DNA of 45,063 nucleotides from positions 1-45,063 of the forward strand of contig CACWHY010000016.1 of NCBI GenBank assembly GCA_902760805.1, written 5' to 3'. Each line of letters opens with the position of its first letter. Within the stretch, counting starts at the first letter, position 1. The notes beneath the pieces are model-generated. The model saw only the letters and a program-made list of their open reading frames with translations. It searched no databases and was not told the DNA's origin. Of this stretch, positions 7,987-12,814 are shown one piece after another. The DNA comes from Ruminococcus flavefaciens. GTDB lineage: Bacteria > Bacillota > Clostridia > Oscillospirales > Ruminococcaceae. Both the position numbers and the translations under genes were made by a program.

Positions 7987-8016
7987 AAAAAGGACTGCTC
8001 TGGCAGTCCTTTTTTT
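7987..8016. terminator. Bidirectional terminator between response regulator and ABC-F genes
   Basis: A-run, AGGACTGC (7991-7998), loop TCTG, GCAGTCCT (8003-8010), T-run. It serves both convergent genes; the ABC-F stop codon overlaps the T-run. It shares its GACTGC/GCAGTC core with three other convergent terminators in the window. Confidence 0.9.
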
Positions 8017-9940
8017 ACTCGTCAAGCTCGATCATGAGCTCGAAATTCTCGTCTATCTTCTGTTTCAGAGCATCTATCTCCCCGCACTTTTGATTCATCA
8101 GCTCGTAGTCGGAATAGACCTCCTCACGGCCGATCTCCTCGGTGAGTGCGTCGATCTGTGCCTGCATCTCGTCGATCTCCTTCTCCAAACGGCGCATCTC
8201 GTTCTTCCGGGCAGCGTCAGCACTTCTCTGCTGCTTGCTCCTGTAGGCTCGGACGTTTTTCTCCTTGGCAGCCTCAGCGGCCTTGGCGGTCTTCTCCGCA
8301 TCGGCGATACGCTTCTCCTCTGCCTGCTCCTCACGAAGCACATCAAGATACTTCTCGAAACTGTACTCATGGACTCTGTAGCCGCCCTCGGTGAGCTCGA
8401 TCAGCCTGTCAGCGATCCTGCTCAGCAGATAGCGGTCGTGGGAAACGAAGATCACCGTACCGGTGTACTCCTCCAGTGCCTGCTCGATAGCCTCCTTTGA
8501 GCTCAGATCCAGGTGGTTAGTGGGCTCGTCCAGGATCAGCACATTGCCGTGCTCCTGCATCATTATGGCGAAGCACAGCTTTGCCCGCTCGCCTCCCGAG
8601 ATCACTCCGACCTCCTTGAAAACGTTCTCGCCGGTGATCCTTACCTGCGCCAGAAGGTTTCGCACCTCCAGGTCAGAAAGGGAGGGATAGCGGCTGTGGA
8701 GCTCCTCCATCACCGTCAGCGCTCGGTTGAGATTATTGCTTTCCTGCTCGAAATATGAGATCTTGATGTTGCTGTTCCAGCGCACCGTTCCCTTGTGAGG
8801 GAGCTGCTCCTGGATAATGCGCAGGAGGGTGGATTTTCCGATACCGTTGTCGCCGATGATGCCGATCTTGTCACCTCTGCGCACCTCGAAGCTCAGGTCG
8901 TCGATGAGAGTTTTCCGCTGAGCGCCGCTGCCCACGGAGATGTCGATGTCCTTCACCTTCAGCACGTCCAGAGGCGGCTCCACACCGTAGGTGAAGACGA
9001 TCTTAGCGTGGCGGTCATCGTGTATCGGCTTTTCGATGCGGTCCATTTTTTCCAGCTGACGGCGGCGGCTCTGAGCCATTTTCGTGGTGGAGGCTCTTAC
9101 CAGATTTCGTGCAACGTAGTCCTCCATTTTCGCTATCTGCTTCTGCTGGAGCTCATACTCCTTCTCACGGCGAGCGGTGTTCTCCTCACGCTGGCGGACA
9201 AAAGCGGTGTAGTTTCCACGGTAGCGTGTGAGGGTTCCCCGTTCGATCTCGCAAATGGAGGTGCAGAGCCTGTCCAGGAAAAAGCGGTCATGGGAAACGA
9301 TCAGGATAGCTCCCCGGTAGCTGCGCAGGTAGTCCTCCAGCCACATGATCGTTTTGAAATCCAGGTGGTTGGTGGGCTCGTCCAGGATCAGCAGGTTTGG
9401 CTCTTCAAGGAGCAGCCTTGCGATATTCAGGCGGGTCTTCTCGCCGCCGCTGAAGCCGGAAACAGTTCGTCCCAGCTCCTCCTCTGAGAAGCCCATACCG
9501 CTGAGCACCATTCGGATCTTCACATCGGTGTTATAGCCGTCGTTGGCCTCGATCCATGAGGAGAGCTGCTGATACTCGTCGGCGGAGGAATTATCCCCGG
9601 CCTCGATCTCGGCCTCGATCTCACGAAGGCGCTCGATGCCCCGGAGGATCGGAGCAAAAACGCTGCGCATCTCCTGGATGACGGTGTTCTCGGTATTAAG
9701 GCCGCCCATTTGTTCAAGGTAGCCGATAGTTGTCTTGGCGGCAAGTGAGATGATGCCGTCCTTTTCGGTAAAGCGGTCGGGCTCCACGGAGCCTGTAAGG
9801 ATCTTCAGCAGTGTGGACTTACCGCAGCCGTTGTTTCCCACAAGACCGATCTTGTCGCTCTCGTCAATTGAAAGGGAAACATTGCACAGCACCTGAGTGC
9901 CGTTATAGAATTTATTGATATTAGTAAGGCTTGCAAGCAT
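8015..9940 (-). CDS. ABC-F family ATPase (YdiF-like)
   Basis: A 641-residue soluble protein with two ABC domains and no membrane segment, as in the ABC-F translation factors that act in the ribosomal E site. First domain: Walker A GNNGCGKST (about 36-44), signature FSGGEKTRLNIA, Walker B LLILDEPTNHLD. Then the interdomain linker with YRGNYTAFVRQREE and RASTTKMAQSRRRQ, the arm that reaches P-site tRNA. Second domain: GDNGIGKST, ISGGERAKL, VLILDEPTNHLD. A C-terminal charged coiled coil (about 545-641) matches YdiF/Uup-type members in length. Ribosome binding site AAGGAA. This is more likely a housekeeping translation factor than an antibiotic-protection protein, but that cannot be settled by reading. 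The RNA at 10013-10392 lies immediately upstream on the same strand. Confidence 0.95.
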   Translation of the reverse strand: MLASLTNINKFYNGTQVLCNVSLSIDESDKIGLVGNNGCGKSTLLKILTGSVEPDRFTEKDGIISLAAKTTIGYLEQMGGLNTENTVIQEMRSVFAPILRGIERLREIEAEIEAGDNSSADEYQQLSSWIEANDGYNTDVKIRMVLSGMGFSEEELGRTVSGFSGGEKTRLNIARLLLEEPNLLILDEPTNHLDFKTIMWLEDYLRSYRGAILIVSHDRFFLDRLCTSICEIERGTLTRYRGNYTAFVRQREENTARREKEYELQQKQIAKMEDYVARNLVRASTTKMAQSRRRQLEKMDRIEKPIHDDRHAKIVFTYGVEPPLDVLKVKDIDISVGSGAQRKTLIDDLSFEVRRGDKIGIIGDNGIGKSTLLRIIQEQLPHKGTVRWNSNIKISYFEQESNNLNRALTVMEELHSRYPSLSDLEVRNLLAQVRITGENVFKEVGVISGGERAKLCFAIMMQEHGNVLILDEPTNHLDLSSKEAIEQALEEYTGTVIFVSHDRYLLSRIADRLIELTEGGYRVHEYSFEKYLDVLREEQAEEKRIADAEKTAKAAEAAKEKNVRAYRSKQQRSADAARKNEMRRLEKEIDEMQAQIDALTEEIGREEVYSDYELMNQKCGEIDALKQKIDENFELMIELDE

Positions 9941-9999: not shown

Positions 10000-10012
10000 C
10001 CATACAGCGCCG

Positions 10013-10392
10013 CAAAAAAAGAGCTCCCCGGGAAGGAGAGCTCTTCTGCCTAAGTGAAAAATGAACACGGTAACGTTCCGGCGCAGCAAATAAGAGAGGG
10101 TATCTGCATCGGAAGCGTTTTTTGGGTATCGCCGGAGCAGCTGCCTAATTCTGCTCCGGTATCTGAAGGGCAGGCTGCCTGACCTGCTCAGTGTAGATAA
10201 GTGTGCCGCTGGTCAGCTATGGCGGTCATCCTCCTGCCTAATGGAGTAGAGCCGCCGGCTTGCTTCTGCTTGAGAGGGAGGGTAGCGAAAGCCATGCCTT
10301 TGCTTTCCTGCGGAACCACCTGTTCCGGCGTGTCCTGTTATTGCCCGCCGGATCAAGGTCAGATCCCCTAGACCCATTCACATTTTTTCTAC
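10013..10392 (-). ncRNA. Candidate structured RNA (~380 nt), family not recognised
   Basis: This non-coding stretch has a minus-strand promoter (10400-10427) and ends in a minus-strand terminator with a T7 run (10014-10045), giving a transcript of about 380 nt. It is dense in hairpins (plus-strand positions): 10350-10366, 10327-10349, 10311-10327, 10287-10307, 10221-10256, 10163-10191 and 10132-10159. Read on the minus strand, the loops at 10293-10301, 10235-10242, 10175-10182 and 10141-10150 all expose AGGCA, and a fifth copy sits at 10047-10052 (part of AGGCAG). It lacks the tmRNA 5' GGTTTCGAC and tag, the RNase P GAGGAAAGTCC, and the SRP GGAAGGA core. It could be a stand-alone RNA or a long attenuator ahead of the ABC-F gene; stand-alone is favoured because that gene has its own promoter. 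Confidence 0.6.
10014..10045 (-). terminator. Terminator of the candidate RNA
   Basis: Minus strand AAGAGCTC, loop, GAGCTCTT, then T7 (plus A-run 10014-10020). It points away from the plus-strand regulator gene and ends the 10392-to-10013 transcript. Confidence 0.8.
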
Positions 10393-10399
10393 AATTACT

Positions 10400-10427
10400 A
10401 TTATACGGATTTTTTTGTAAAATACAA
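10400..10427 (-). promoter_or_regulatory. Promoter for the candidate RNA
   Basis: Minus strand TTGTAT (10427-10422), 16-bp spacer, consensus TATAAT (10405-10400). The -35 is only moderate. It is divergent from the AraC-type gene promoter at 10492-10520. Confidence 0.55.
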
Positions 10428-10615: not shown

Positions 10616-12814
10616 ATGTCCAGGCTGCTGATAGGCGTCATCATAACCGACTGCCACATCGACTTTCAGGAGGAGATCCTCAGAGGCATCATCTCACAGT
10701 CATTCAAAAGCAACTGTGACACCGCTATCATTGCGCCATTCCACAATTTTTCCTTCAAAACAGACCATAAGGAGAACGAAAGGCGTATTTTCAACCTGAT
10801 ACTCTCAGACAAATTTGACGGATTTTTATACGACAGAGCCACCTTCTACGACGAGGAGATCAAAAAGTACATCGACTCTCTCCTGACCCGCTCAGGAAAG
10901 CCCGTTATGCTGCTAGACTCCGCCAACCACAAGAGCTTCGAGACCGCCACTATCGACGACAGCGAGGCCTTTGAAACTATCACCGACCACCTTATCGAGG
11001 TCCACGGACATACCCGTATCTGCTGTCTTACCGGCCCCAAGGGCACCTTCGTTGCGGAGGAGCGCTTGAAGGGCTTCAAGAACTCCATGCGCAAGCACGG
11101 CCTGTACTACGACAGGAACTGCGTCCGCTACGGAGATTTCTGGAAGGACAGCGCCCGTGAAATGGCCGACGACATAATCTCCGGCAATATCGAGCGCCCG
11201 GAGGCCGTGGTCTGCGGAAACGACGTCATGGCCGTCACCCTCACTGCCGCTCTCATGGCTGGGGGCATAAAGGTGCCGGAGGACATAGCTGTTACCGGCT
11301 ACGATGCTTCCATGGACGGCTACCGCAGCGTGCCTTCCATCACAAGCTACTCACGGCCGAATTTCCAGCTTGGCGCAGAGGCCTTCCGCCGGCTCTACCG
11401 CATAATCACAGGCAAGATCTGCAACAAGGTGCCTAACGAGTACGGAAAGCTCCGCCTGGGAAGGAGCTGCGGCTGCTCAGACGACCCAAAGCTCCGCCAC
11501 GACATCGTTCGCAAGGAGAACATCAACCAGCGCTTTGAGTCGGATATGCTCTACGGCGATATGCTCTTCGACATCACAAATGCCGATAATCCCGAGGATT
11601 TCGCCGAAAAGATCGACCACTACACCTACCTTCTGTACAAGATGAGCCACCTGTTCATCTGTCTTTCCAGAAAGTATATCGAGTCTCCTCAAAACAACTT
11701 CGGCGACGTCCTCACCTTCAATCCCGGCGACGAGATGAAGATGATCATTTCCAAGAATTCCGTCAGCCGTGAGCCTGCTTCTGAGGAATACTTCAGCTCA
11801 AACGAGCTGCTGCCCATTTTCAGCCAGGAGAGAGGCTTCCCTGTGGCTTACTACATCTCTCCCCTGCACTACAACAACAATTTCTTCGGATACTGCGCCG
11901 TTTCCTACGGCAAGGAGCCCCTGAGCTTCTCCTCGCTTTACCTGAAATGGATCAACTATGTCAACGTTGCCCTTGAGCAGGTGAGGATCAAGGCCATGAT
12001 GAACAAGACTATCTTCGACACCAACCGTGTGCTCCTCTACGACGAGTACACCGGTCTTCTCAACCGCAACGGCCTTGTCCGGGAGGTGGCTGTTTCGGCT
12101 TCTGTCCCGGTTGACTGTATCCGCATCCAGCTCACAGGCCTGTCGAAAATGTACTATCAGAGCGGTGAGGAGCAGTGCCGGAAGATCGGATCTGCATTTG
12201 CAAGAGCTGTAAGGGACTGCCTCCACGACAGAGAGCTCTGCGGCGTGTGGTCCATGAACACAATGTGCGTCATAACCTTCACTCCAGACCGTGCGGAGGA
12301 GTTTTTCCTTGCACTCAGCGAGAGAGTCCGTGAGAGCCAGTTCAGCGGCGAGGACAACTGCAACATCGACTTCACTGTGGGACAGTATACCTTCCCCGAC
12401 CTGCGTGAGCCGGATCTGCCGGACGCTGTCCACAAGGCCGCCGTCAACCGGATCTACTCCTACAGCCTCTCTGAGCACAACGCAAATCCTCAATTCGAGA
12501 AGCTGTGCTTGCTCCGGAACAAGATCATGAAAAACCCGGAGGAGCCCTGGAACATCAGCGAGATCGCCGACCAGCTCTACCTTAGCAAGAGCTATCTGCA
12601 AAAGATCTATAAGACCTATTTCGGCAAGAGCATCATTGAGGAGATGATCCAGTTCCGCATAGATAAGGCCAAGGCGCTGCTCTCCGGCACAGACCGCACA
12701 GTTACCGATATTTCCAGGGAGTGCGGCTATTCGTCCTACAACTACTTCGTAAGGCAGTTCAAGTCGGCGGAGGGAGTTTCGCCCTCTGAGTACCGCACAT
12801 CCTGCAAGACGTGA
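10616..12814 (+). CDS. Fusion regulator: LacI-type sensor, degenerate GGDEF-like domain, AraC HTH
   Basis: About 732 residues; the start at 10616 follows AAGGAGG. Residues 1-280 resemble a LacI/GalR periplasmic-binding-like sensor without its own HTH: a LIGVIITDCHIDFQEEILRGI opening, SDKFDGFLYD, EVHGHTRICCLTGP and VPEDIAVTGYDAS. A cysteine-containing linker (GRSCGCSDDP) and a middle region of unknown fold follow. Residues ~495-630 look like a diguanylate-cyclase fold (YDEYTGLLNRNGL) but lack a GGDEF active-site motif, so are presumably non-catalytic. The last ~100 residues are an AraC HTH pair (ISEIADQLYLSKSYLQKIYK and VTDISRECGYSSYNYFVRQF). It is probably a sugar-responsive transcription factor; ligand and targets are unknown. 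A palindrome over its own -35 suggests autoregulation. Confidence 0.88.
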   Translation: MSRLLIGVIITDCHIDFQEEILRGIISQSFKSNCDTAIIAPFHNFSFKTDHKENERRIFNLILSDKFDGFLYDRATFYDEEIKKYIDSLLTRSGKPVMLLDSANHKSFETATIDDSEAFETITDHLIEVHGHTRICCLTGPKGTFVAEERLKGFKNSMRKHGLYYDRNCVRYGDFWKDSAREMADDIISGNIERPEAVVCGNDVMAVTLTAALMAGGIKVPEDIAVTGYDASMDGYRSVPSITSYSRPNFQLGAEAFRRLYRIITGKICNKVPNEYGKLRLGRSCGCSDDPKLRHDIVRKENINQRFESDMLYGDMLFDITNADNPEDFAEKIDHYTYLLYKMSHLFICLSRKYIESPQNNFGDVLTFNPGDEMKMIISKNSVSREPASEEYFSSNELLPIFSQERGFPVAYYISPLHYNNNFFGYCAVSYGKEPLSFSSLYLKWINYVNVALEQVRIKAMMNKTIFDTNRVLLYDEYTGLLNRNGLVREVAVSASVPVDCIRIQLTGLSKMYYQSGEEQCRKIGSAFARAVRDCLHDRELCGVWSMNTMCVITFTPDRAEEFFLALSERVRESQFSGEDNCNIDFTVGQYTFPDLREPDLPDAVHKAAVNRIYSYSLSEHNANPQFEKLCLLRNKIMKNPEEPWNISEIADQLYLSKSYLQKIYKTYFGKSIIEEMIQFRIDKAKALLSGTDRTVTDISRECGYSSYNYFVRQFKSAEGVSPSEYRTSCKT

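Follow-up and report, generated by a model that had tools for sequence, protein, structure and literature searches.

What does a short intergenic RNA do if it codes for no protein and exposes the same few nucleotides in hairpin after hairpin? We asked this question of a locus in Ruminococcus flavefaciens, within a 45,063-nt stretch of contig CACWHY010000016.1 (assembly GCA_902760805.1; hereafter, the window). A first-pass annotation made from the sequence alone had described an unassigned RNA of about 380 nt, with several hairpins of differing stems that carry AGGCA in the loop. Ruminococcus species are fiber degraders of the rumen and gut and, to our knowledge, the post-transcriptional coordination of their secreted enzymes has been little studied.

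The RNA unit in the window

Rereading the sequence placed the unit where the annotation had put it (10013..10392, minus strand), between a divergent regulator gene (start 10616, plus strand) and an ABC-F gene (start 9940, minus strand). Both the consensus -10 element (TATAAT) and the terminator with seven T residues that had been described are present (Table 1). The -35 element (TTGTAT) is poor, and the promoter is absent from the list given by a consensus scan. On its own strand, the RNA folds more stably than shuffled versions of itself (z -3.2; 0 of 100 shuffles equally stable). The only full-length homologue found, in the genome designated G094, does so weakly (z -1.9; 3 of 100 equally good).

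Table 1. Features of the RNA locus and its neighbors (positions in the window)
Feature	Position	Strand	Remarks
ABC-F ATPase gene	8015..9940	-	Own promoter-like site 9999-9971
Non-coding RNA	10012..10393	-	~380 nt; predicted start near 10393; bounds from promoter and terminator
Intrinsic terminator, seven T	10014..10045	-	Read directly from the sequence
Fifth AGGCA copy UUAGGCAG	10046..10053	-	UUAGGCA conserved in G094
CAGAUACCCU, third GATACC copy	10097..10106	-	Part of the family-wide 3' ACCCUC signal
GATACCC, second copy	10124..10130	-	Predicted 3' partner of the 5' G run
UAGGC hairpin ccggagcag-AATTAGGCAG-ctgctccgg	10132..10159	-	R1 match, E 2e-4 (training-set member); identical in G094
Hairpin gcagg-TCAGGCAG-cctgc	10170..10187	-	Conserved in G094
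UAGGC hairpin ctcc-ATTAGGCA-ggag	10231..10246	-	R1 match, E 0.06 (hairpin in the R1 training set)
Hairpin gaaagc-AAAGGCATG-gctttc	10287..10307	-	AGGCA loop (10301 loop); motif not kept in G094
UAGGGGAUCUG	10360..10370	-	5' strand of a possible long-range helix; predicted folds
RNA promoter	10400..10427	-	-35 TTGTAT 10427-10422, 16-nt spacer, -10 TATAAT 10405-10400
Divergent regulator	10616..12814	+	LacI-type sugar-binding domain and AraC HTH (Pfam Peripla_BP_3, HTH_AraC)

The view that the unit contains no coding gene was borne out. The longest internal open reading frame, of 54 aa, shows no Shine-Dalgarno sequence on visual inspection and is cut short after 4 codons in G094; a 94-aa frame begins in the 3' part of the RNA, crosses the terminator, and enters the ABC-F gene. 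Among 43 related RNAs (see below), 8 contain a frame of at least 50 aa, and peptide similarity is confined to close relatives (6 pairs). Frames of at least 100 aa overlap the RNA in G007, G068, G070, G073, G100, and G134, and all but that of G070 begin upstream of the promoter. The window RNA has no conserved open reading frame.

As described previously, AGGCA occurs five times (starts 10299, 10239, 10180, 10146, and 10051), with four copies in the loops of hairpins whose stems are unrelated; the fifth, also noted at the time, lies just 5' of the terminator stem and outside any loop. The reported recurrence of GATACC stands for the window RNA, which has three copies, but only in part for G094, which keeps two of the three. 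Folding predictions for both RNAs place the G run of UAGGGGAUCUG opposite the CCC in the second GATACC/AAACCC copy; by eye, CAGAUACCCU (10106-10097) could be the partner instead. For another clade, too, the predicted structure includes a helix of AGGGG with C-rich sequence toward the 3' end. Across 2,000 dinucleotide shuffles, five copies of AGGCA gave p=0.003 and three of GATACC p=0.0005, both motifs having been picked post hoc; the corresponding values were 0.096 for any 5-mer five times and 0.005 for any 8-mer three times. The statistics from this single RNA sequence are modest, and it is the comparison among genomes that carries the strong evidence. We ruled out a DNA operator in place of an RNA hairpin because the stems share no sequence.

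Given that the RNA lies directly upstream of the ABC-F gene on the same strand, an attenuator or leader of that gene had been offered as an alternative. This proposal failed. The RNA ends in a terminator that is followed by the separate promoter-like site of the ABC-F gene, no such RNA was seen by eye in the 750 nt upstream of 10 ABC-F genes, and regulators distant from ABC-F (G009, G032, and G070) keep the RNA, again by eye. Across genomes, the RNA does not appear to be tied to ABC-F. Because ABC-F has its own promoter-like site and the RNA goes with the regulator when the two genes are apart, we consider an attenuator almost certainly wrong, and the ABC-F gene is probably a neighbor without functional link to the RNA.

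A family of RNAs beside a sugar-sensing regulator

Searching 125 genomes of the genus at the DNA level returned a single full-length homologue, in G094 (82% identity; the genome of the window is G000). The G094 RNA contains six copies of YYAGGCA: three of the four loops and the copy before the terminator are kept, the 10301 loop is lost, and two copies are new. Since plain DNA homology yields only this one homologue, we relied on synteny via the regulator, which has relatives at E<=1e-60 in 104 of the 125 genomes. The ~380 aa between the sugar-binding and AraC domains of this protein have no Pfam match at E<=0.001; by eye, a DEYTGLLNRNG stretch in this middle part is presumably GGDEF-like.

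We scanned 87 regulator upstream regions by script (two of them from G098) and read 48 of these by eye as well. A non-coding RNA occupies 49 of the 87 regions and a rhamnogalacturonan lyase gene 31, while 7 have neither, including one (G081) that ends at a contig edge. The identity of the lyase comes from Pfam matches to RGL11_C at E 1e-188 or better in 3 of the 31 genes. In the 49 RNA-type regions, a promoter is followed by non-coding sequence that in most cases ends in a recognizable intrinsic terminator. We set RNA bounds for 43 of the 49 by script and by eye, and dereplication left 34 RNAs.

The first-pass annotation held that known RNAs of this size do not fit, and Rfam 15 agrees, with no matches for the window RNA or for 20 related loci; the only Rfam match in the window is a tRNA elsewhere. 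At E<=10, the RNA region drew five weak matches, all scoring well under the gathering cutoffs (best E 0.055); the best three center on the terminator. The RNA family belongs to no known Rfam family (tmRNA, RNase P, SRP, 6S, or others). Among the literature matches listed, neither the RNA nor the UAGGC loop was found; coverage is thin for subscription journals, hence this is not proof of novelty.

Among the 34 dereplicated RNAs, UAGGC is the commonest 5-mer in hairpin loops (23 of 34; across 100 shuffled sets, no 5-mer exceeded 6 of 34). The shorter AGGC occurs in loops of 25 of 34 RNAs and in at most 7 of 34 in 100 dinucleotide-shuffled sets, and there are 118 hairpin loops overall vs 55 in shuffles. 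A YAGGC hairpin is found in 40 of 43 RNAs. The number of recognized loops per RNA is mostly low: 3 RNAs have none, 30 have one, and 8 have two; G000 has three and G094 four. In some species, the loop of the terminator hairpin itself carries the motif. Across the family, the stems of the hairpins are thus exchanged freely and the loop sequence, UAGGC(A/G), is conserved. On a contig of G076 other than the regulator's (C198, L212), we observed a second RNA-like unit with a AATTAGGCAC loop (ccggag-...-ctccgg) and a terminator-like hairpin.

The usual changes in the loop are U or C before AGGC and A or G after it, which are changes that G-U pairing with one fixed partner allows. They would suit a kissing interaction between these loops and a UGCCU(A/G) loop of some RNA encoded in trans, a partner over which the RNA and the mRNA leaders described below would compete. 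Nevertheless, no such partner was noticed, the invariant core has only 4 nt and a few loops read AGGCU (G022 and G090), and we regard RNA-RNA kissing as quite unlikely.

Three further signals recur in the 34 RNAs: a CAGG[AT]CA-type sequence (26 of 34 vs 3.1 in shuffles, maximum 9), [AU]CCCUC within the last 110 nt (20 of 34 vs 2.8, maximum 8), and AGGGG in the 5' part (19 of 34 vs 7.8, maximum 15). Covariation among homologues had been proposed as a check on the structure, and RNAalifold supplied it for one clade of 13 sequences, the window RNA not among them: of 31 consensus pairs, 15 have compensatory changes, which supports a conserved structure in that clade. The clade fold contains an AGGGG helix with the C-rich stretch beside the terminator as well as the UAGGC hairpin stem, and it leaves the ACCCUC and CAGGACA stretches unpaired. 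Pair counts taken from individual hairpins are inflated, since these sequences were selected for forming hairpins.

Two conserved, unpaired stretches would suit a base-pairing sRNA that acts in trans through CAGGACA or ACCCUC, for example on Shine-Dalgarno sequences. The UAGGC hairpins in the RNA (in some clades, the terminator) and in leaders would then dock one RNA chaperone. The single loop in 30 of 43 RNAs and the terminator loops of one clade fit this model, which leaves the hairpins in lyase coding sequences (below) unexplained; in addition, folds of G000 and G094 predict internal pairing for a C run in the second copy of GATACC. We consider the chaperone-assisted sRNA model doubtful.

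UAGGC hairpins in lyase mRNAs and in leaders of secreted enzymes

We searched for further hairpins with three covariance models: R1, built from spacer RNAs only; R2, built partly from leader hairpins found with R1; and R3, for 7-nt loops. R1 matched within the lyase coding sequence in G030, G014, G096, G093, G147, and G110 and in the lyase terminator in G027, and R2 added a lyase terminator match in G017. The main coding sites encode VTLGTN, VELGSN, and SELGDG, mostly with TTA GGC within the stem, and the stems differ between species yet stay complementary. In total, 19 lyase coding sequences (those of G030 and G083 being partial genes) contain 20 UAGGC hairpins vs a mean of 0.54 and a maximum of 4 in 100 synonymous codon shuffles, although 5 of the 19 have none. 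Seven of nine control pentamers gave 0 to 3 hairpins; the two high ones, AAGGC (8 vs 0.9) and CAGGC (7 vs 2.8), are close variants of the motif. GGC follows TTA, a rare Leu codon, in 25 of 68 cases and other Leu codons in 42 of 1,158. Because the lyase genes are related, p values from these tests overstate independence. Selection at the level of codons argues that the hairpin acts as a nucleic acid, most simply as RNA.

By eye, a tRNA-Leu-like stretch lies downstream of the lyase in G095, G011, and G114, with GGAATAGGCAGAC in its D-loop; this D-loop holds AATAGGCA, as do common loops of the RNA family. R1 matches that share a score of 21.6 bits may be tRNA-Leu. The likeness is probably coincidence and not tRNA mimicry by the loops.

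The lyase and the RNA have promoter position, neighbor, and 3' signal in common, with 10 of 18 lyase 3'UTRs containing [AU]CCCUC (1.4 in shuffled sequences). The promoter block of the window RNA, which aligns as conserved in G094, is ~80% identical over 70 nt to the lyase promoter region of G024 (G024:C18:15545-15615, L008), and this common block is likely a regulator-binding region. In G024, it is the lyase and not the RNA that lies beside the regulator. A weak lyase-like remnant was detected in G098b/G099 (tblastn E 0.03-0.05, 42% over 33 aa), and none with reversed proteins. From these data, we infer that a lyase transcript lost its coding part and became the RNA; since the coding relic is weak, the case for an mRNA-to-ncRNA origin draws mainly on the common promoter, neighbor, and 3' signal.

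Those shared features and the remnant are also in keeping with hairpins that serve as stability or processing tags of secreted-enzyme mRNAs and with an RNA that is a functionless leftover of a decayed lyase transcript. That account does not sit well with hairpins kept across 34 diverged RNAs, with compensatory pairs in one clade, or with two G094 loops that are absent from G000, none of which neutral decay predicts. We hold a functionless leftover to be unlikely.

In G000, R1 recovered the RNA itself and three matches at E 0.5-1.4. One lies in the leader of a GH5 cellulase gene (Pfam E 2e-47), where a loop hairpin (AGTAGGCA; G000:C8:82209-82235, L148) precedes the start codon by ~70 nt; it scored E 0.55 with R1 and 0.006 with R2, a model trained in part on this very hairpin. 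R3 found no match in G000 at E<=0.5, and the GH5 leader is the single convincing leader match in this genome. Hairpins with a similar loop precede GH5-like genes in G094, G017, and G117, and a second GH5 gene in G094. Other leader hairpins precede genes for GDSL esterases (G129, G128, G061, G069, G023, and G080), DUF6055 proteins (G027, G069, G096, and G030; in G005, 194 nt upstream), a GH31 enzyme, a sugar-binding lipoprotein, a transglutaminase-like protein, and, in G120, the lyase itself. Downstream families were assigned by Pfam for 9 proteins, one member of each family where run, and by eye for the remainder.

At E<=0.1, R2 gave 49 matches across 26 genomes; 17 fall at the RNA/lyase locus and 32 elsewhere. 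By hand tally, 18 of the 32 lie in leaders whose downstream protein has a signal-peptide-like start, a count that is partly circular because R2 training includes leader hairpins. The other 14 comprise 11 in other coding sequences, which weigh against the reading proposed below, 1 in a GH31 leader, 1 before a small membrane ORF, and 1 near the RNA-like unit of G076. Leader and coding classes were assigned by script and by eye, and signal peptides by eye. For R1, we read the contexts of 53 matches, nearly all off the RNA/lyase locus, among about 100 matches listed. In 24 genomes from 24 other families of the order, there were 17 matches at E<=0.3, none in such leaders; at the same threshold as above, the comparison is 18 of 32 vs 0 of 10 outgroup matches (Fisher p 0.002).

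In 13 of 20 leaders, the hairpin begins 1-17 nt past the predicted start site (26 nt in the GH5 leader of G000), where the predicted site is the best-scoring match near the hairpin, a choice that favors short distances. In 7 leaders, the hairpin ends 14-19 nt before the start codon, beside the ribosome-binding site. Such placement, near the mRNA start and in part near the ribosome-binding site, suggests that translation or stability is what the hairpins control.

With R3, two kinds of site were gained: the leader of the G080 esterase gene and, behind GH43-like genes (type by eye), terminator-like hairpins whose loops read UUAGGCA. An identical hairpin, AAAGCCGTGC-TTAGGCA-GCACGGCTT, occurs ~100-160 nt behind GH43-like genes (by eye) in six places in five genomes (L318, L319, L339, L320, L321, and L323), and these look like terminators with the motif in the loop. 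A coding hairpin, ccgc-AATAGGCA-gcgg, lies at a conserved TAIGSGF-like stretch of one protein family in nine genomes (L177, L211, L216, L220, L231, L256, L258, L259, and L260), where protein-level conservation could explain it.

A candidate UAGGC network and its relation to known systems

The first-pass annotation had read the loop, rather than the stem, as the selected part of an unassigned RNA. This observation holds and, as far as sequence comparison can tell, extends well beyond the window: the motif sits on unrelated stems throughout the genus in RNAs without an Rfam match, and the selected-loop reading is backed as well by the compensatory changes of one clade and by loops in lyase coding sequences and mRNA leaders. 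The presence of the same loop on the tips of RNA hairpins and on leaders of functionally related fiber-enzyme messages suggests one common binding partner.

We propose that one trans-acting factor, most probably an RNA-binding protein other than CsrA, may recognize the UAGGC hairpins, and that the RNA would be a decoy or co-client of that factor. In leaders, the sites would often lie near the ribosome-binding site. The RNA would be made once the regulator senses its sugar, control by the regulator being suggested by position, and would then compete for the factor, coupling the sensing of a sugar, probably from pectin, to the output of a fiber-enzyme regulon. Csr-like competition is the simplest link between the RNA and the leader hairpins. 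Species with the lyase at this promoter would use the lyase mRNA in place of the RNA; in others, the coding gene would have been lost and a pure RNA left. Because most RNAs have few loops, multivalent titration as by CsrB fits G000 and G094 and not most species, and the one or two loops of most RNAs fit a chaperone-assisted sRNA too. Overall, we put the probability of this decoy or co-client reading, jointly with membership of the window RNA in a new Ruminococcus RNA family divergent from a sugar-sensing AraC-type regulator, at just under one half. More tentative is the broader claim of a genus-specific network unrelated to Csr, in which a candidate factor reads UAGGC loops in the leaders of cellulase and pectinase mRNAs and the lyase mRNA doubles as a regulatory RNA by means of hairpins within its codons; in many species, the gene at this promoter would have shed its coding part and persist as a pure decoy.

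A hairpin common to cellulase, esterase, and lyase messages points to a candidate regulon and a candidate decoy RNA, and it could serve as bait to isolate the factor. A coding gene giving way to non-coding RNA at a single promoter would, in turn, be a clear bacterial case of an mRNA becoming a regulatory RNA.

The RNA resembles decoy riboregulation but does not belong to any named family. In CsrB-type RNAs, GGA loops are the sites of CsrA/RsmA. CsrA was rejected as the binder, none having been found in G000: a PF02599 search of this genome (96.5% complete) had no match, in a test whose control detects the family in 3 of 14 known genomes. CsrB/CsrC and RsmY/Z are sponge RNAs for CsrA/RsmA (PMC5027483). 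As in those systems, a short loop motif of the Ruminococcus RNA recurs in mRNA leaders, in a context of carbon metabolism. In contrast to them, the top loop 5-mer is UAGGC and not GGA, most of the RNAs have one or two loops, and no CsrA was found in the genome of the window.

Leader hairpins recognized by a regulator are also known from ANTAR and LicT-type antiterminators, whose loop consensus differs from UAGGC. The Ruminococcus leader hairpins are likewise putative regulator sites; unlike antiterminators, they show no overlapping terminator in the leaders that we read by eye. Stem-loops in transcripts of fiber-degrading enzymes have a precedent in the cip-cel operon of Clostridium cellulolyticum, where selective RNA processing and stabilization occur and stem-loops affect mRNA abundance (PMC4423207). 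The cip-cel stem-loops are described as intergenic, lie at processing sites, and are rated by folding energy, whereas in Ruminococcus it is the loop sequence that is conserved, in leaders and in a stand-alone RNA.

One parallel concerns an mRNA that acts as a regulator. In Campylobacter, the coding flaA mRNA reportedly titrates CsrA. It is a dual-function mRNA in the CsrA network (PMC4894983). Like flaA, the lyase mRNA is proposed here to titrate a post-transcriptional regulator; unlike flaA, its sites lie in the coding sequence or terminator, and in many species a non-coding RNA takes the place of the gene.
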